Source: Arcobacter sp.
GTDB taxonomy: Bacteria > Campylobacterota > Campylobacteria > Campylobacterales > Sulfurimonadaceae
DNA: 38,777 bases
Direction of reading: 5' to 3'
Assembly (NCBI GenBank): GCA_002733885.1
Contig: NVXJ01000007.1
Location: forward strand, 6,460 to 45,236
Of the stretch, positions 1,944-19,225 are shown one piece after another. Positions within the stretch are counted from its first letter, which is position 1. Every line of letters starts with the position of its first letter. The position numbers and the translations under genes were made by a program. The notes under the pieces were generated by a model. It did not search any database, had not been told where the DNA came from, and worked only from the letters and a program-made list of their open reading frames with translations.

Positions 1944-3041
1944 CTATCCTATTTTCGATTGTGACCGTGATGTGTCAGCAAATAGAGAAAAATTAGTTCC
2001 TAAATCAATGTTCTTAGTATTAATAATACTCGCATAATGTTCTAGAGTTACCTTCGGTGATGAATGTCCTAGCAGGCCCGCTAGTTCATTTAGACTTACA
2101 ATATTTTCCTTGAGCATTAGTGTTGCAAACGTATGACGGGTACAATACATTTTTCTTTTTGGAACTCTACTGTTTTTTAATATATTCAACCAAAAGACTC
2201 TAAGGCCTTGTGCATCATCTATCTCACCAAAGATAAATAACTGTTTTGGATCTTGAAACTTTTTAACTGCATCCAGTAAAAAAGGAGGATAAGGAACTTT
2301 TCTTATTGAGTTTTGTGTCTTTCCTGTTCCTAACATTCCTTTTGTCCTGGTACGTTTAATATGGATGAATCCATCGTCTTTAAAATCACCCATCTGTAGC
2401 CCCAAAATTTCACCTGTTCTCATTCCTGTGTTAAACGCAATCTTCAAGTAAGGGATCATCGGGCCTTTTGCAACTTCCATTATCTTTGCAACTTCTTCTC
2501 GTGTAAAGTATTCAACTTCTTTTCTTGGTTCAGGTTTCAACTTGATACCAAGAGCCGGGTTAAAGCTAATTACCCCATCATCCACTGCAAACTCAAATAT
2601 CTCTTTCATGCAGCTCTTATAGGTACTTTTAGAACGAGAAAGCATTTTTAATGTGTTCAGGTATTGTTTACAGTCTAAACGGGTTATAGAGTCTATGTCT
2701 TGACCTCTAAAATGTTCAATGACTCTCTTCCAGTACTCGACTTTAAGACCATAGGTTTTATTATGATCTTTGTGTTCTAAAAATATACGACCGTAATACT
2801 CGAAAGTCTTAGGTTTCTTTTTGTATATTTCACCGGTGGCTATTTTACTGTCTAGGGCAGGTACCATCTGTTGTGTAACTAGCTTGATGTTTTGCGGTGT
2901 GTTCTTGAGCTTAGTGCTCTTTCTTTTTCGCTTTCCATCAACATAGTAGTTGAGCCAGATGACATCGCCTCTTATAAAATGACTTGTCATGCCTTTTTTG
3001 TTACTCCTTTTTGAAGTAACAGTATCGCTATGCTTTGACAT
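1944..3041 (-). CDS. int: Tyrosine recombinase phage integrase
   Basis: C-terminal FNTGMRTGEILGLQ...CTRHTFATLMLKENIVSLNELAGLLGHSSPKVTLEHYA catalytic signature; adjacent to attL. Confidence 0.96.
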   Translation of the reverse strand: MSKHSDTVTSKRSNKKGMTSHFIRGDVIWLNYYVDGKRKRKSTKLKNTPQNIKLVTQQMVPALDSKIATGEIYKKKPKTFEYYGRIFLEHKDHNKTYGLKVEYWKRVIEHFRGQDIDSITRLDCKQYLNTLKMLSRSKSTYKSCMKEIFEFAVDDGVISFNPALGIKLKPEPRKEVEYFTREEVAKIMEVAKGPMIPYLKIAFNTGMRTGEILGLQMGDFKDDGFIHIKRTRTKGMLGTGKTQNSIRKVPYPPFLLDAVKKFQDPKQLFIFGEIDDAQGLRVFWLNILKNSRVPKRKMYCTRHTFATLMLKENIVSLNELAGLLGHSSPKVTLEHYASIINTKNIDLGTNFSLFADTSRSQSKIG

Positions 3042-5629: not shown

Positions 5630-6183
5630 GAAAGTTCTTCAAAAGAATCTGTTATTGGCATCATGACAATAATTATGTTTTCATGTTCAATTAAGACCGG
5701 TGTACTTGTAGAAGTTATTCCAATGGTTCCATGACTTATATTTGGTACTCTTTTAGGCTCAATATGTACTTTATTAAAAGCCAAAATTCCTTCTATCTGA
5801 GTTTGTTCTACAAATTCAATCTTGTTGATGACTTCTTTTGGAATAATTCGTTGAAAGTCTGGATAGTTAAAGGTTCTCTCTCCTAATAGACTTTCAATTG
5901 AGATGGTAATAATCTCTCTCTCGTATTCATCTAAACAAACTATTTTGTTTGGTTGTAAATCAAAGTATAAGGATTTTTTGTACTTGATGCTTAAGTCAAC
6001 AATGCTTTTATGGATATAAAAATCCTTATCAGCGTGACCATGGTGTTTGATGACAGCAAGTGCTCTTGTATCAGTTGAGACAAGATGCTCTTTATCAATA
6101 TATAAATAATTTAATTCAAATTTAGGATTATTGGTATCAATGTATTTTGCTACAACTTGTAATTCTTTTTTACTTACGATCAT
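5626..6183 (-). CDS. Divergent DNA polymerase III beta/sliding clamp-like protein
   Basis: FELNYLYIDKEHLVSTDTRALAVIKHH resembles the DnaN/phage clamp motif; domain-level resemblance only. Confidence 0.45.
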   Translation of the reverse strand: MIVSKKELQVVAKYIDTNNPKFELNYLYIDKEHLVSTDTRALAVIKHHGHADKDFYIHKSIVDLSIKYKKSLYFDLQPNKIVCLDEYEREIITISIESLLGERTFNYPDFQRIIPKEVINKIEFVEQTQIEGILAFNKVHIEPKRVPNISHGTIGITSTSTPVLIEHENIIIVMMPITDSFEELS

Positions 6184-6214
6184 GTATGGTCCTTTGTTGG
6201 TTAAGTGTTTAATC

Positions 6215-6232
6215 AGAGTAAATATTTACTCT
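6215..6232. promoter_or_regulatory. 18-nt perfect palindrome AGAGTAAATATTTACTCT upstream of the clamp-like gene
   Basis: Perfect dyad about 32 bp upstream of the 6183 start codon; possible operator. Confidence 0.45.
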
Positions 6233-6357
6233 CAGGTAAAAACTATATAGTTGGTTGCCCTTGCCTTGGGAGAAAGGACAAGGGCATAAGTAAATCTAAG
6301 GAGTAAAATGTTTTCTAAAGAAACATCGCTATGCGAACGACATGTCTTGTTTTATGC

Positions 6358-6435
6358 ACGAAACTGTGGGATTCGAACCCACGACCTTTGCACTTTGGGG
6401 AAATGAAAATGCTCTAACCGCTGAGCTAAGTTTCT
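6358..6435 (-). tRNA. tRNA-like gene with intact D-arm, T-arm and mostly paired acceptor, but anticodon arm plus variable region 5 nt too long
   Basis: Minus strand agaaact-TAGCTCAGCGGTTAGAGC-ATTTTCATTTCCCCAAAGTGCAAAGGTC-GTGGG-TTCGAAT-CCCAC-agtttcg. Confidence 0.6.
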
Positions 6436-6455
6436 GTATTTACGGGGGAGGCCTT

Positions 6456-6464
6456 GTGTTATAA
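6456..6464 (+). promoter_or_regulatory. Extended -10 promoter (TGTTATAAT) for the 6522 gene
   Basis: TGnTATAAT in ccttgTGTTATAATtctg. Confidence 0.5.
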
Positions 6465-6521
6465 TTCTGTTGCGTACAAAAAAGACAAAAGGACTCCATA
6501 ATAAATATTGGAGATGGAAGT

Positions 6522-7175
6522 ATGAGAATTAGAGATCAAAAAATAAAAGACGAAAAACAATGGATAGAAGGTTATGAACATAATCTTAGGTTAGCTTATG
6601 ACTTAATGAAAGACGAATTAAAAACCTTACATTCGGATAAAGTTAATCAAGGAAATACTATTAAGCTTGTACTGTGGCTGAATATTATTTTTGTGGGTAT
6701 TTCAATAAAAGTTTCTGAAGAGGGAAGTGATATATATCTTCTTGGAATATTTTCTTTGATTGCTTTCTTTAGTATTTTTGTTGCCTTTGTAGGCTTAATG
6801 ATGGGTAGGTATAGTGCTTATGCCTCTATGCGAAGAGCATCTTCATTTTATAAGCTCAACAATGACAAGTGGATAAAGACACAAGGCCTTGAAACTGCTA
6901 CTCAAACTGTTCAAAAGGCTATTAGATACAACGGTCTAATTATTATTAAGCGTGCTAAGTTGATAAGAATTTCAATGTATATCACTCTTAGTTCTCTATT
7001 CATGCTTTTGATTTTAAGTGCGCACACAGTTTATATAAAACAAGGAAATGAAATGGCAGATAAACCAAGCAAACCAGCGGTTACAGTTGTGCAGAACCCA
7101 AGTATTAAAAGAGCTAACGATAGTGCTCCAAAAACACCAAAAGCTACACCCGAATCAAACTCTTCAAAGAAGTAA
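6522..7175 (+). CDS. Multi-TM protein (SLATT-like topology), probable moron
   Basis: Soluble N-terminus, about three hydrophobic segments, and a Pro/Lys/Ser-rich tail; opposite strand to neighbours; own promoter; 8-bp hairpin at its end (7171-7190). Confidence 0.6.
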   Translation: MRIRDQKIKDEKQWIEGYEHNLRLAYDLMKDELKTLHSDKVNQGNTIKLVLWLNIIFVGISIKVSEEGSDIYLLGIFSLIAFFSIFVAFVGLMMGRYSAYASMRRASSFYKLNNDKWIKTQGLETATQTVQKAIRYNGLIIIKRAKLIRISMYITLSSLFMLLILSAHTVYIKQGNEMADKPSKPAVTVVQNPSIKRANDSAPKTPKATPESNSSKK

Positions 7176-7882: not shown

Positions 7883-8158
7883 CTATGAAACTAGGTGTAT
7901 GTTGTTTTGCTTGCAGTACTTTTTGAACCCGGGACAATTCTTTTCTAGATAAGTGAAGATTTTTTTGTCTAGGTTTGTACTTTGACCTTTTGGATGCTTT
8001 TTGCTTACTCTTGTAAACTTGTTGTTTATGCGATTTGTCAATGAACCGATTGTTGTTTCAAGCAATTCGGCTGTGTTTTCTAAACTGTTTTGATTCATAA
8101 GTAAAGAATTTTGTATGTTTTTGTAAAACGAAATCTCTTGATTAAATACCATGTACAC
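7883..8158 (-). CDS. Small early protein downstream of the PL-like promoter
   Basis: 91 aa, first gene after the consensus minus-strand promoter at 8234-8262. Confidence 0.6.
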   Translation of the reverse strand: MYMVFNQEISFYKNIQNSLLMNQNSLENTAELLETTIGSLTNRINNKFTRVSKKHPKGQSTNLDKKIFTYLEKNCPGFKKYCKQNNIHLVS

Positions 8159-8233: not shown

Positions 8234-8262
8234 ATTATATGCAATTATGCATATAATGTCAA
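8234..8262 (-). promoter_or_regulatory. PL-like sigma70 promoter: TTGACA-17 nt-TATAAT, operator TATGCATAATTGCATA in the spacer
   Basis: Minus strand TTGACATTATATGCATAATTGCATATAAT: both hexamers match consensus exactly. Confidence 0.85.
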
Positions 8263-8296: not shown

Positions 8297-8698
8297 TTGA
8301 ATACGATAGGGTATAGATTTTCAATTGCTTTAGATGCCGTTTATGGGGCTAGCAGTACAAAAAAGTGTGTTTCAGATTTAGGAGTAAGCCAAAGTACTAT
8401 AGATAGAGGAAAGCGTGGTGATAGTCTTACAAAAACAATTTCATTATTTGCTGCTAAAAATAATATATCAACTTCTTGGATACTTACTGGTTCAGGGGAA
8501 ATGATGACCGATGAGCGGTCAATTAACCAAGTAATCACTGGTAATAGCAATAATCAAGCAGGAAGAAATGTTCACTCCGGTGCTAATGCTTCTTCTGATC
8601 CTATTGTCGCGGCAATAGAATCTTTACTGGGTGAGCTTGACGCTAATGAAAAGCTTCAAGTCCTCAGTTATATAACAAGTTTAAAAGTAAAAAATTAG
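8297..8698 (+). CDS. CI-like phage repressor N-terminal HTH protein, no peptidase domain; TTG start
   Basis: YRFSIALDAVYGASSTKKCVSDLGVSQSTIDRGKRGDSLTKTISLFAAKNNISTSWILTGSGEM matches the CI-repressor HTH pattern. Confidence 0.75.
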   Translation: MNTIGYRFSIALDAVYGASSTKKCVSDLGVSQSTIDRGKRGDSLTKTISLFAAKNNISTSWILTGSGEMMTDERSINQVITGNSNNQAGRNVHSGANASSDPIVAAIESLLGELDANEKLQVLSYITSLKVKN

Positions 8699-8704
8699 AA
8701 AAAT

Positions 8705-9256
8705 ATGAAATATATCAATGGACATCAAAACAATCAAGCAGGTAGGGATCTAACTATACACAGTAGTTTGGTTCATAATGTAAAGGTTTCCCCCAAGGAC
8801 ATAGAGTTAAAGGCCATTGTTAACCATGACTGGATAGTTCTTTCTGTTTATGTTGCTTCACTTGCCTTGATGTGGGGATTTCTCTATGTAACTATTGTTT
8901 CAACAACAGTTTTGATACTAACAAGCATCGTTACTGGAGTAGGGATTGTTTTTTTAATTGAAGGTACTCAAAAGTTTATGTTGAAGTTTTCACCTTGGCA
9001 TATAAAGTACATTGATGGAAAAATAATCTTAGATGGAAGAGAACGAAAGTTTTATGAAGAAATCTGGAGCGTAAGTTATAGGAAGAACTGGATAGGCAAT
9101 GGGATTATCTCTTTTTATGGAGTAAATCCTAATAACAACAAGCCTTATCAACGAAAGATAAAGTTCTTATATAACGCAGAAGCGAAGTATGTGCATGACT
9201 GTTTTATGGATGAAGATAGGATACGTAAGTATAAGGAAGGTTTGAGGTATAAGTGA
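8705..9256 (+). CDS. Membrane protein with N-terminal NNQAGRD motif
   Basis: 6 bp after the repressor gene; two hydrophobic segments (VLSVYVASLALMWGFLYVTIV, VLILTSIVTGVGIVFLIEG). Confidence 0.65.
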   Translation: MKYINGHQNNQAGRDLTIHSSLVHNVKVSPKDIELKAIVNHDWIVLSVYVASLALMWGFLYVTIVSTTVLILTSIVTGVGIVFLIEGTQKFMLKFSPWHIKYIDGKIILDGRERKFYEEIWSVSYRKNWIGNGIISFYGVNPNNNKPYQRKIKFLYNAEAKYVHDCFMDEDRIRKYKEGLRYK

Positions 9257-9295
9257 AAAAAGAAACAATGAAATATCTGAAAGAAGATAAGTAAA

Positions 9296-10030
9296 TTGGC
9301 AATTATTAAAACTGAATACGAGACACTCTCGACTAAAGAGAAAACAAAACAAACCCGTGAAAGTCCTGTAATAGTATGGATATTAACAATAATGTGGCTA
9401 TTTGTCTGGACTATGTTTCCATTCATTATCTATATTATTAATGGGGCTTCTTTTTCTTTTAAGGACATAGACTTTAATGAAGTTGGAGATTATTTAGCAG
9501 GTGTCGCTGCTCCCGTGGCATTCTTTTGGCTTGTGTATGGTTATTATCAGCAAGGTAAGGAACTCAAGCTAAATAACAAAACCTTAAGCCTACAGTACGA
9601 GGAATTAAGACATTCAGTAAGTGCTCAGCAGGATCAGGCAGCCAGTATGAAAGAGCAGTTAAGTATTGTTGTAAGAGAGAAGTTCTATCCAAAATTTAAG
9701 ATTAAGAAGTTTAATTATCTAAAAGATGAAGCATACATAGGTATTGTAATAGAAAATGTGTCCAATGAAGTTTATTCGACTAATATAGAAGTTCTTTCTG
9801 ATGGAATGATCCTTGCTAATACAATAGACAGTAATGTAAAGTATATCGATTTCGAGATTCAAACTATTGATGATATACAAAAGCAATTTAAAATACTTCT
9901 GAAAATAGATTTTATCTTAGAAATTGGGCATAGTGTTGAAGAATTTTATGAGATTAATTACAGCACTTTAAAACATAATGTGTTTAATGAACCAATTTTA
10001 GAAAAATCTAAGCAGGAGGTAATCGGGTGA
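9296..10030 (+). CDS. Membrane-anchored hypothetical protein with coiled-coil and C-terminal beta-rich region (TTG start)
   Basis: Two TM segments, then GYYQQGKELKLNNKTLSLQYEELRHSVSAQQDQAASMKEQL. Confidence 0.65.
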   Translation: MAIIKTEYETLSTKEKTKQTRESPVIVWILTIMWLFVWTMFPFIIYIINGASFSFKDIDFNEVGDYLAGVAAPVAFFWLVYGYYQQGKELKLNNKTLSLQYEELRHSVSAQQDQAASMKEQLSIVVREKFYPKFKIKKFNYLKDEAYIGIVIENVSNEVYSTNIEVLSDGMILANTIDSNVKYIDFEIQTIDDIQKQFKILLKIDFILEIGHSVEEFYEINYSTLKHNVFNEPILEKSKQEVIG

Positions 10031-10464
10031 AATTATATTGTGATACACAGTTCAAGGCTGCCGGTAAAACATTAAAAAAACATCTAGTTGTTGTTGAAAG
10101 AGGTATTCCTAGAATCATCTACTATAAAATGTATTTTGAGCAAAAAAAACCTACCTATAAACAAGTTTCATTTAATGAGGAAATCATAAAAGGACTCATA
10201 GATATGCAAAAAGATAGAAAAATATCGGAAGTAGACTTCAAAGATATTGTGGTTAATATTAAGCATACGTATGAAGAATTAAAGAGTACAAATGAAGAAG
10301 GAGATACTTTACAGGCTTTGACAAGTATCTATAATGAGATGGGAGAAGAAGTGCATTTAGGAAATGGTGTTTTACTTGAGGATGAAAGCTTTGCTTTTTT
10401 TTATGACTTTTCTGATATTATTGCAGGAAAGACCAGTGCTATATTTCCAAAGGGGTTAGTATGA
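10027..10464 (+). CDS. Hypothetical protein, translationally coupled to upstream gene
   Basis: 4-bp overlap with the preceding ORF. Confidence 0.65.
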   Translation: MKLYCDTQFKAAGKTLKKHLVVVERGIPRIIYYKMYFEQKKPTYKQVSFNEEIIKGLIDMQKDRKISEVDFKDIVVNIKHTYEELKSTNEEGDTLQALTSIYNEMGEEVHLGNGVLLEDESFAFFYDFSDIIAGKTSAIFPKGLV

Positions 10465-10820
10465 GTGTATTTTCAGATATAAACGATTTACATGATTCTG
10501 ACTCTGTGGCATTTAATGTTCTTATCCAGAAAGCTATGAATAAAATTGTCAAGTTTGATGACAATACCTTTTCTAATACAAGTTTTGAGCCTAAAGAACT
10601 AGAAAGTTCTGAATTTAAAATATATTTTGGTGAACGATCAATTCGAGAAGCTATGGGTAATGGAACAAGTAGAACACATGTTGAGGCGGCTCTTTATTAC
10701 GTAATCAATAAAAGTAATGGACATATCATTACAGATAAAAATATCTTAGAGGGATGTAGTAGTTCAATGCAGTCTCATCTTGATGGAAAATATGATCTCA
10801 AAAACAATAGGTGGGTGTAA
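10461..10820 (+). CDS. Hypothetical protein, last gene of the immunity-region operon
   Basis: 4-bp overlap with the preceding ORF. Confidence 0.65.
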   Translation: MSVFSDINDLHDSDSVAFNVLIQKAMNKIVKFDDNTFSNTSFEPKELESSEFKIYFGERSIREAMGNGTSRTHVEAALYYVINKSNGHIITDKNILEGCSSSMQSHLDGKYDLKNNRWV

Positions 10821-10937: not shown

Positions 10938-11429
10938 TTAGTCTTCTACTAAGGCATAGGCCTTAGACTCTACCAGTATCTCATAGTTTATGAAGGGTGC
11001 TTCTTTTATCTCTACACTTAAAAGTCTAGGCTTTATCTTATCGTCTAGTTCTTTATATACCAATTCATCGGCTATCTCTGCTGCTACATAACCAAGTCTT
11101 CTTTTTCCTGTGGAGGACTTTCCATAGATGGCTATAGCATTGTCATCATGTTTGTTGTTTGGTTCTCTTTTAAATGACAGCTCTAGGTTCTCACCTGTTG
11201 CCCATTTGACACAGGCATCCATTCTATAGGTTACACCTTGGATGAAAAAATCATCATCTTCATAAACTTCATACCCTTCTGGAATATCTATAACTTTAAA
11301 AGCATCTTGTTTTTTAGTAAAAGCTTTATCGTTAGGTTGACTAGGCTTGTCTTCTTGTAAATACCCTTTGACTACATAATACAGTACCCAAAGTAAAAAT
11401 CCATAAAATGGATAGGCATAAATACTCAT
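10938..11429 (-). CDS. HIRAN-domain protein with N-terminal TM anchor
   Basis: FIQGVTYRMDACVKWATGENLELSFKREPNNKHDDNAIAIYGKSSTGKRRLGYVAAEIADEL is HIRAN-like; N-terminus YPFYGFLLWVLYYVVKGYL hydrophobic. Confidence 0.75.
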   Translation of the reverse strand: MSIYAYPFYGFLLWVLYYVVKGYLQEDKPSQPNDKAFTKKQDAFKVIDIPEGYEVYEDDDFFIQGVTYRMDACVKWATGENLELSFKREPNNKHDDNAIAIYGKSSTGKRRLGYVAAEIADELVYKELDDKIKPRLLSVEIKEAPFINYEILVESKAYALVED

Positions 11430-11770
11430 TACTTAGCTTGCAAATCTCTAGTGTTAACCCCGTTAGATGGTCCATTATCGTTGTAAGTAAAATTTACTAC
11501 AATATCATTCTTTACCGTATAAACATATTGTCTTACGCCTTCACCAGTACCTAATCTGTAAGATAAGTATTCTTCATCTCCTATAACTTTAGAGTCTTCA
11601 GGAAGTCCTAATACTTCTATTAATTGTTTTCTTGTCACCTTATTAATAGGAAAGTTCTTAGCGTAAGAAGTTGGTGCTGTCCATATTGATGGCTTCTTGA
11701 TCCCGTACTTACTAGCTCCGCTACATCCTATAAAAACAACTGCAAGAGCAGCAAACAATATTTTTTTCAT
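11429..11770 (-). CDS. Small lipoprotein
   Basis: Signal peptide and lipobox MKKILFAALAVVFIGCSG; overlaps the HIRAN gene start. Confidence 0.75.
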   Translation of the reverse strand: MKKILFAALAVVFIGCSGASKYGIKKPSIWTAPTSYAKNFPINKVTRKQLIEVLGLPEDSKVIGDEEYLSYRLGTGEGVRQYVYTVKNDIVVNFTYNDNGPSNGVNTRDLQAK

Positions 11771-11810: not shown

Positions 11811-11839
11811 TTGACTTATATGCAGTTTTGCATTAATAT
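11811..11839 (+). promoter_or_regulatory. PR-like sigma70 promoter: TTGACT-17 nt-TAATAT, operator TATGCAGTTTTGCAT in the spacer
   Basis: TTGACTTATATGCAGTTTTGCATTAATAT upstream of the CII-like gene; same operator geometry as PL. Confidence 0.8.
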
Positions 11840-11854
11840 ATCGCTATCCAACCT

Positions 11855-11905
11855 CAAAACATGAGTAGCAGTTGGAACCTTTATGGTGCTGCTCTTCATG
11901 TTTTG
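11855..11905 (+). promoter_or_regulatory. Leader hairpin of the CII-like mRNA (17-nt arms, 15/17 complementary, 17-nt loop)
   Basis: CAAAACATGAGTAGCAG (11855-11871) and CTGCTCTTCATGTTTTG (11889-11905). Confidence 0.6.
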
Positions 11906-11923
11906 ATCCAAAAAGGAGCCTTT

Positions 11924-12430
11924 ATGGCACTTGCTAAAGACCCATTTTTCTACAAAATCACTCATCAGGCTATCGAAGCCTTTGGTGAGAGACATAATAT
12001 CACTGCACGACAATACTTTGCCCAACTACTAGGCTACAAAGGCCCTAACTCTAACATCCAAATTGGCACGATGCTCAATTATAACACATACAATCCCCTT
12101 ACTCCTAGGCCTATGTCTGTTGATCAACTGTTAGTGGTGATGGATGAGTGTGAAGATGACAGACAAATTATCATAGATGCAATTTGTAAGCGTTTTGGTG
12201 GTCAGTTTGTCAAAGATAAAACTGTTACTAAGGCAGCGGATAAGTGCATCAAGGATGACTTAATGAAACTTTCTTTTATGACAGGTAACTTGTCTAACCT
12301 GTTTTTACAATATATGAAAGATGGTGTTCTTGATGTAGAAGAAGGGCAGGACCTTGAATCTAAAGGCCATGAAATACGCCAAGAGATGAAGAACATAGAG
12401 AACTACTTTAAATCTATTAAGCAAGACTAG
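11924..12430 (+). CDS. CII-like phage regulatory protein (listed ORF starts at 11861; MALAKDPFFYK start preferred)
   Basis: ALAKDPFFYKITHQAIEAFGERHNITARQYFAQLLGYKGPNSNIQIGTMLN...MSVDQLLVVMDE is CII-family-like; AAAGGAG RBS before 11924. Confidence 0.75.
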   Translation: MALAKDPFFYKITHQAIEAFGERHNITARQYFAQLLGYKGPNSNIQIGTMLNYNTYNPLTPRPMSVDQLLVVMDECEDDRQIIIDAICKRFGGQFVKDKTVTKAADKCIKDDLMKLSFMTGNLSNLFLQYMKDGVLDVEEGQDLESKGHEIRQEMKNIENYFKSIKQD

Positions 12431-18523: not shown

Positions 18524-18547
18524 ACTGATAGTAGTCTAACTATCAGT
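18524..18547 (+). terminator. Hairpin ACTGATAGT-AGTCTA-ACTATCAGT followed by TTT
   Basis: Perfect 9-bp stem, 6-nt loop, at the end of the post-terL intergenic region. Confidence 0.5.
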
Positions 18548-19225
18548 TTTCCCCCTTTTCCCTTCTACCTTTTCCTCCCAGAAAAAATTATATAACCATT
18601 TAAAAGAAGCACCGAAATTTACAGCATCATGTTCCTGTATTTGATGTTCAATATATTGCTCATAAAACTTATAATTATTTTTTATTGGATTTCTAAAAGC
18701 ATCTTTAACAATAGTTTCATCAAATACTTCATTTTTTAATGCAATACCTATCTGCTCATATATATTGATAAATTCTATCATTTGATTTATGATTTTTTCA
18801 CCATCAGTTGACGTTTTACAAGGAGGATTTTTTCCTGCTTTAGAAGGAATATGCTTACCTTGGTCATCTGTTTCACAAACCCACCCATGAACTTCATCCG
18901 GTGTTAGCGGGTCTTGTTGATTTATTCTATCTGTAAAATTTATGTACTTTCCATTGGTACTTTTTATTATTTCTTTTTTACTACAAGTAAGTATATCAAG
19001 CTCATCTCTTATTTGCATGAGATTTTTTGATATAGATCCTATTTCTGCTGTTGTAAAGGAGCGTCGATTCCAGTCGTGATTTGCTTTTAACTGCCTTTTG
19101 TTAATTATAATAGTTATTGTAATAGCTGCAATGGATACTATACTTGCAAAAACACTTAGTCCTATATACCAATTTAATCTATTTGTAGCTACTTCTAATG
19201 CCATTATTGTTGTGTTGTTATCCAT
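18536..19225 (-). CDS. DUF4760-like membrane-anchored protein, moron between terL and portal
   Basis: N-terminal TM (LSVFASIVSIAAITITIII), then NHDWNRRSFTTAEI...; opposite strand inside the late module. Confidence 0.6.
   Translation of the reverse strand: MDNNTTIMALEVATNRLNWYIGLSVFASIVSIAAITITIIINKRQLKANHDWNRRSFTTAEIGSISKNLMQIRDELDILTCSKKEIIKSTNGKYINFTDRINQQDPLTPDEVHGWVCETDDQGKHIPSKAGKNPPCKTSTDGEKIINQMIEFINIYEQIGIALKNEVFDETIVKDAFRNPIKNNYKFYEQYIEHQIQEHDAVNFGASFKWLYNFFWEEKVEGKRGKTDS

Follow-up and report, generated by a model that had tools for sequence, protein, structure and literature searches.

A sequence motif matched between a prophage repressor and its neighbouring membrane protein in Arcobacter suggests a repressor-gated membrane effector

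The immunity region and its operon

Where several genes follow a prophage repressor in the place held by rexA and rexB in phage lambda, the question arises of whether they act with the repressor as a single system and, if not, which of them does. This question is raised by a window of 38,777 nucleotides (the whole stretch of Arcobacter sp. DNA analysed here), which harbours a prophage with an integrase gene (1944-3041), a CII-like gene at 11861, and terminase, portal and further structural genes downstream. The prophage lies on a contig of 99 kb, in a genome of 3.1 Mb, and contig IMGVR_UViG_3300005043_000148 represents a near-identical phage. An earlier note on this DNA had described a five-gene operon between PL and PR, and an ORF check indeed placed five co-directional plus-strand genes at the coordinates given there, with intergenic gaps of 6 bp (between the ORFs at 8297 and 8705) and 39 bp (between those at 8705 and 9296), and with the last three genes joined by 4-bp overlaps (10027-10030 and 10461-10464). 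By sequence, both ends of the region carry outward-facing promoter-like elements, i.e., a leftward PL-type promoter (8234..8262, minus strand) with a perfect TTGACA-17-TATAAT (12/12 consensus positions), and a PR-type promoter (11811..11839, plus strand) with the pattern TTGACT-17-TAATAT. Within each lies an operator-like, perfect ATGCAN4TGCAT palindrome, ATGCAATTATGCAT at 8239..8252 in PL and ATGCAGTTTTGCAT at 11820..11833 in PR. The count of such palindromes alone is without significance, being reached in 15 of 100 shuffles, and what appears to count is their placement over both promoters rather than their number. The CII-like regulator (11861..12430, plus strand; phrog_101, E 1.1e-12) completes the region. 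The cI-rexAB-like position of the genes is thus upheld, as is co-expression with the repressor, which the anatomy of the region suggests. Two hydrophobic segments each in the 8705 and 9296 products agree with the membrane components that had been proposed, and the 10027 and 10461 products look soluble. PADLOC returned no match for any of the five gene products; a listed defence system was accordingly rejected, and the statement that no named defence family is present stands.

Several neighbouring genes deserve mention in their own right. The first leftward gene under PL (7883-8158, minus strand) encodes a small protein without a family name and with a possible Cro-like role; a similar small protein occupies the same place in the related loci L005, L009, L043, L058, L060, L064 and L065. 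Between the operon and PR lies a minus-strand gene (10938-11429) for a HIRAN-domain protein with an N-terminal hydrophobic segment, which matches the PADLOC candidate models PDC-M03B (E 3.7e-8) and is adjoined by a small lipoprotein-like ORF (11429-11770). To the left of the immunity region, 6522-7175 (plus strand) encodes a membrane protein (phrog_19900, E 1.2e-6) resembled by a membrane protein of L069 (5068-5574), and a DUF4760 membrane protein (18536-19225, minus strand) is encoded opposite to the structural genes among which it lies, as a moron-like insertion.

The first gene of the operon (8297..8698, plus strand; 133 aa, TTG start) encodes a short CI-like repressor composed of an HTH, a linker motif and C-terminal helices, which matches the transcriptional regulators of phrog_8 (E 1.4e-5) and, below threshold, Phage_CI_repr; a domain-profile search did not find an S24 peptidase domain in it. 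Its linker motif, ITGNSNNQAGRNVHS (8534..8578, plus strand), aligns with the N-terminus of the product of the next gene (8705..9256, plus strand; 183 aa), where the matching motif is INGHQNNQAGRDLTIHS (8714..8764, plus strand). The motif common to both is represented by ITGNSNNQAGRN in the linker and INGHQNNQAGRD in the membrane protein, the two products sharing NNQAGR(N/D). The disordered, motif-bearing N-terminus of the 8705 product is followed by two predicted TM helices (residues 42-61 and 67-95; 8828..8989, plus strand) and a C-terminal beta-rich domain (8993..9253, plus strand), for which six to seven strands and then a helix are predicted at low to moderate confidence and which is the best-conserved part of the 8705 family. 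The AlphaFold model, of modest confidence (pLDDT 54), shows residues 1-30 as disordered, followed by the helices 42-61 and 67-95, strands and a C-terminal helix. Foldseek searches of PDB and viral models with it gave no significant match, and PH/PTB-fold chains, which were among the top but insignificant matches, were excluded as evidence. The short hairpin of the model implies that both termini would be cytoplasmic, so that the motif could meet the repressor.

A scan of 399 genomes for the DNA pattern of this motif flavour gave three occurrences; two constitute the window pair, 180 bp apart, and the third is out of frame. Other in-frame matches of NNQAGRD type in viral contigs belonged to T4-type capsid proteins and unrelated ORFs and were discarded.

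Nine pairs with matched motifs

A search with the 8705 product returned three relatives in phages or viral contigs, namely in L005 (66% identity), in L006, which is Sulfurimonas phage SNW-1 (30% identity), and in L009, the last reached by alignment-based search; a truncated copy is present in a Campylobacteraceae MAG (L003/L010). The membrane gene is immediately preceded by the repressor gene in L005 and SNW-1, and the two are separated by an SNase gene in L009. Repressor and membrane protein carry LSGNHNNQAGGN and INGHGNNQVGGN, respectively, in L005, IVGNNNNQAGRD and IDGNNNNQAGRD in SNW-1, and a distinct motif on both partners, GNMGPGAIANQGHDQNIN and GNLGSFASLNQGNNQNIN, in L009. In L005, tandem membrane paralogs (6001-7123) with an NNQxG motif in both follow one repressor, the motif of the second paralog being HGSYNNQAGRD. 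A search with the repressor led to L043, where a full CI protein with an S24 domain has the linker SITGNSNNQINGSNNTV and the membrane protein after it starts with NIEGSNNIQIIGNGNTI. The CII-like regulator then served as an anchor, without use of the motif, for gathering further immunity regions, which yielded the pairs of L060 (ISQSGNGNIQHVGN in the repressor, IDQSGSNNFQHIGD in the membrane protein), L065 (MVGNGNNQVNGSNNSI and NIDGNDNVQVFGDGNTI) and L076 (GKNNIGTVGTARNIHVGDK and GKNQIDHIDQARDIHNGDN). Finally, a scan with the DNA pattern of just one membrane-side flavour led to the membrane protein of L095 (NINGDKNVQILGDGNII), and a motif-bearing repressor (VVGNGNNQVNGSGNTL) is encoded directly upstream of it.

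Five motif flavours are represented among the nine pairs, and within every pair both proteins have the same one; the motifs are 12-25 residues long and nearly all N/G/Q-rich. The window and SNW-1 repressors have the same flavour on unrelated-looking HTH domains, and similar HTH_3 domains come with different flavours in the repressors of SNW-1 and L009; S24 domains are present in the motif-bearing repressors of L043, L065, L076 and L095 and absent from the other five of the nine (window, L005, SNW-1, L009 and L060). Judging from these comparisons, the motif moves independently of the remaining protein, and its presence in both members of a pair is not accounted for by homology of the remaining sequence. 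Three groups of membrane partners can be told apart: the window family, which includes L009 and which L076 joins by hhalign (probability 80), a family comprising L043, L065 and L095, and L060 on its own. A single homology family for all partners was not supported, as no relationship to the window family could be demonstrated for the second group or for L060; all partners nonetheless share the layout of motif, two hydrophobic segments and C-terminal domain. The membrane families are rare in genomes (2/399 and 1/200).

The matching was evaluated by local alignment scores of repressors against membrane-protein N-termini. The cognate scores sum to 422, a value reached by three of 40,320 re-pairings, against a re-pairing mean of 276; the cognate matching ranks first of 720 in sets without closest relatives, and first of 120 with one pair per flavour in all nine possible choices. 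The independent flavours number five, and the loci all belong to a single phage lineage or host phylum. Each pair also scores above shuffles of its own composition (p 0.0002 to 0.0032); the partners in L060, L065 and L076 had been picked by eye before these statistics. The cognate motifs share 81 identical residues, of which 42 have different codons in the two partners; independent draws would give 45.5. Since codon divergence equals that of independent draws, the match appears to be maintained at the protein level, and a recent DNA duplication as its source is ruled out.

The control loci comprised eight annotated phages of other hosts and eight motif-free Campylobacterota regions; none of these sixteen repressors has a motif or a matching neighbour, the best score being 36 against 43-70 for cognate partners. 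Among the regions gathered with the CII-like anchor, motif and partner are absent, by reading and score, from L066, L068, L070, L072, L073, L077, L078 and L080, and by reading from L074, L058 and L064. The S24 domain of the L073 repressor closely resembles that of L076, but L073 has neither motif nor partner, and the repressors L076:3877-4599 and L073:4449-5180 thus offer a natural plus/minus comparison. Among the remaining genes of the case operons, no repressor match was significant, and for 9296, 10027 and 10461 the comparison with the repressor motif gave p 0.18 to 0.52. Taken together, a genuine matched-motif system is very probably present.

The third gene (9296..10030, plus strand; 244 aa, TTG start) encodes an accessory membrane/coiled-coil protein without the matched motif, and belongs to phrog_9267 (E 1.3e-20), which is widespread in unrelated contexts, including Agrobacterium phage, Vibrio and Agrobacterium plasmid records. 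The accessory orphan genes 10027..10464 (plus strand; 145 aa, GTG start) and 10461..10820 (plus strand; 119 aa) have no detected relatives in 50,697 phage and 72,556 plasmid records; for 10027, only a copy of the same phage was found in 2.9 million viral contigs, and a single-sequence structure model of its product was uninformative (pLDDT 33). Elsewhere, other genes surround the repressor: a HipA_2 kinase and DUF3037 in SNW-1, SNase in L009, WYL-TerB in L060, and DUF4760 in L076, where the DUF4760 protein is encoded between the repressor and the membrane partner. In SNW-1, the HipA-like kinase (PF20613), labelled an aminotransferase in its record, and DUF3037 directly follow the pair (L006:1048-2573). 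The suggestion that the four genes after the repressor form one system therefore did not hold: 9296, 10027 and 10461 lack the motif and do not accompany the pair in relatives, and a five-gene functional operon was rejected. From their distribution, these three genes are locus-specific accessories, the segment around the repressor behaves as a cargo site, and the conserved unit is the repressor with the first membrane protein, 8705, rather than the five-gene operon.

From matched motif to membrane: likenesses, proposed mechanism and rival readings

The locus resembles lambda RexA/RexB in its position after the repressor, in expression in the lysogen (suggested here by the anatomy) and in a membrane partner; it differs in that no separate RexA is present and the coupling motif is found on the repressor itself. 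Searches of Pfam, PHROGs, NCBIfam and PADLOC found no Rex homologs among the products of 8705-10820. The 8705 product is also reminiscent of the 2TMbeta effectors of Cap15 and Panoptes, which collapse the inner membrane (PMC12657230), as two TM helices precede a C-terminal beta domain (predicted here with moderate confidence); no cyclase is present in the locus, however, the motif is an additional N-terminal element, and neither a sequence nor a fold match to Cap15 was found for 8705.

The closest parallels to the motif itself are adaptor systems. The EAD1-10 domains of VMAP/GAP1 and related conflict systems occur as cognate copies on a sensor or core protein and on the effector that the neighbouring gene encodes, and EAD10 has been proposed to act by homotypic interaction (PMC7159879); likewise, the present copies on adjacent-gene products are closer to each other than to non-cognates. 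The repressor and membrane motif windows of L076 both match the same one of 24,736 Pfam families, EAD10, with E values of 0.0012 and 0.026 that both fall short of the Pfam cut-off, and no EAD match was found in Pfam for the window pair or the other flavours (four of the five). Unlike in EAD systems, the core is an HTH phage repressor without an NTPase, VMAP, GAP1, MoxR-vWA or STAND component, and the motif is only 12-25 residues long. Cognate copies on adjacent-gene products are also a feature of BASS amyloid motifs, by which the effector is recruited to the sensor (PMC7889193), and the BASS/RHIM motifs of NLR-Bell pairs (PMC7889193, PMC8086366) share with the present ones their short, N/G/Q-rich nature and adjacent genes of which one encodes a membrane-active product. 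A RHIM/BASS3-like look is seen in the L043- and L060-type flavours (NVQVFGDGN or NIQHVGNG). Similarity to two aggregating BASS3-type peptides (PMC8086366) reached a nominal p of ~0.005 among 36 tests, and this for L065, L095 and L060 only; the window flavour showed no significant similarity to them. The region differs from BASS loci in that no NLR was found in it and in that the motif lies in a repressor linker and a membrane-protein N-terminus.

Matching of this kind is characteristic of homotypic adaptor motifs of EAD or BASS/RHIM type, which couple a sensor to an effector, and a physical homotypic interaction between repressor and membrane protein is likely; that the motif is of a beta-arch or amyloid type is a more tentative proposal. 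The concerted change of the motif in both proteins suggests that the repressor signals directly to the cell membrane. The most likely reading, to which we assign a probability of roughly one half, is a repressor-gated membrane effector with a Rex-like purpose and a different coupling. The repressor would be the sensor and the membrane protein the effector, and the cognate adaptor motifs, one in the repressor linker and one in the N-terminus that the two-TM protein exposes to the cytoplasm, would bind each other, possibly by co-polymerisation as a beta-arch. In an undisturbed lysogen, operator-bound repressor would keep its motif inactive or its partner silent. Should an incoming phage, DNA damage or loss of operator DNA lead to displacement, cleavage or titration of the repressor, the freed motif would cluster the membrane partners, whose TM hairpins would then depolarise or permeabilise the membrane, so that infection is blocked or aborted. 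Direct motif coupling would thus take the place of RexA, and 9296, 10027 and 10461 would be interchangeable cargo expressed in the lysogen. An abortive-infection or exclusion role is plausible, and the pair may serve the prophage as an alarm or exclusion device of a new kind.

Whether the membrane protein is an effector or rather a regulator of the repressor is evenly balanced as a question on its own, and the strongest rival, repressor capture, takes the latter side. A membrane signal (envelope stress, depolarisation, superinfection, or the binding of a lipid or protein to the beta domain) would cause the membrane protein to polymerise and to draw the repressor off its operators and to the membrane, thereby setting an induction threshold. 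The same matched motif supports the binding that this requires, and a precedent exists in Hex of phage 434, a repressor-linked neighbour that modulates induction (PMC3564112). Hex is likewise a second protein from the repressor transcript that affects lysogen stability via the repressor, in its case by blocking RecA-stimulated autocleavage; that paper (PMC3564112) does not present Hex as a membrane protein with a matched motif, and an S24 domain is lacking in the window repressor. The five of nine repressors devoid of S24, and thus of RecA-dependent induction, would need another induction route, and it may be noted that SNW-1 was obtained with mitomycin C despite a repressor of this kind (PMC11290706). 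The S24 domain is kept in four motif-bearing repressors, however, which argues that the partner is no simple substitute for RecA induction, and a two-TM protein bearing a cytosolic beta domain has the build typical of an effector; capture is rated as rather unlikely. In S24 repressors the motif lies between the HTH and the peptidase domain, so that autocleavage would free an HTH-motif fragment, which could be the natural trigger in an effector as well as in a capture model. Were the linker needed for the effector, repression could be compromised, a consideration that counts against the effector model.

Considerably less probable is an addiction arrangement, in which the membrane protein would be constitutively toxic and the repressor its antidote, acting via the motif, so that loss of the prophage or repressor kills the cell. 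It would account for a matched motif within one operon, and a 2TMbeta effector that is silent until its inhibitor disappears is on record (PMC12657230); the two membrane paralogs per repressor in L005, however, would demand more antitoxin. That these are ordinary low-complexity linkers, alike by composition or as the remnant of an old duplication and devoid of interaction, is very improbable: Asn/Gly-rich linkers are common, nearly all motifs are of such N/G/Q-rich composition and residues 1-30 of the membrane protein are predicted to be disordered, yet composition shuffles and re-pairing reject this explanation, five flavours switch in concert, codons are saturated while residues match, and the control repressors show no such matching.

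Implications for the lysogeny switch

A search of the open-access literature for CI or prophage repressors linked with amyloid, prion-like or RHIM motifs returned nothing relevant, and the word "repressor" is absent from the paper on SNW-1 (PMC11290706). Within that literature, the coupling principle is known and the phage repressor as a partner appears to be new: in cellular immune and cell-death systems, sensors are known to be joined to membrane effectors by homotypic adaptor motifs. We tentatively propose a new class of prophage device, in which the linker of a CI-type repressor carries a switchable, amyloid-like homotypic motif that signals to a membrane effector with the cognate motif. 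With the matched-motif criterion, further pairs can be sought even where the partners share no sequence homology, and concerted motif switching makes the prediction testable by swaps. If the reading of a repressor-gated effector is true, amyloid/EAD-type signalling would extend to the lysis-lysogeny switch, the linker of a CI repressor would gain a function, and a direct route would lead from the state of the repressor to the membrane, a step that needs RexA in lambda; the lysogeny state itself would thereby be wired to membrane integrity or exclusion.
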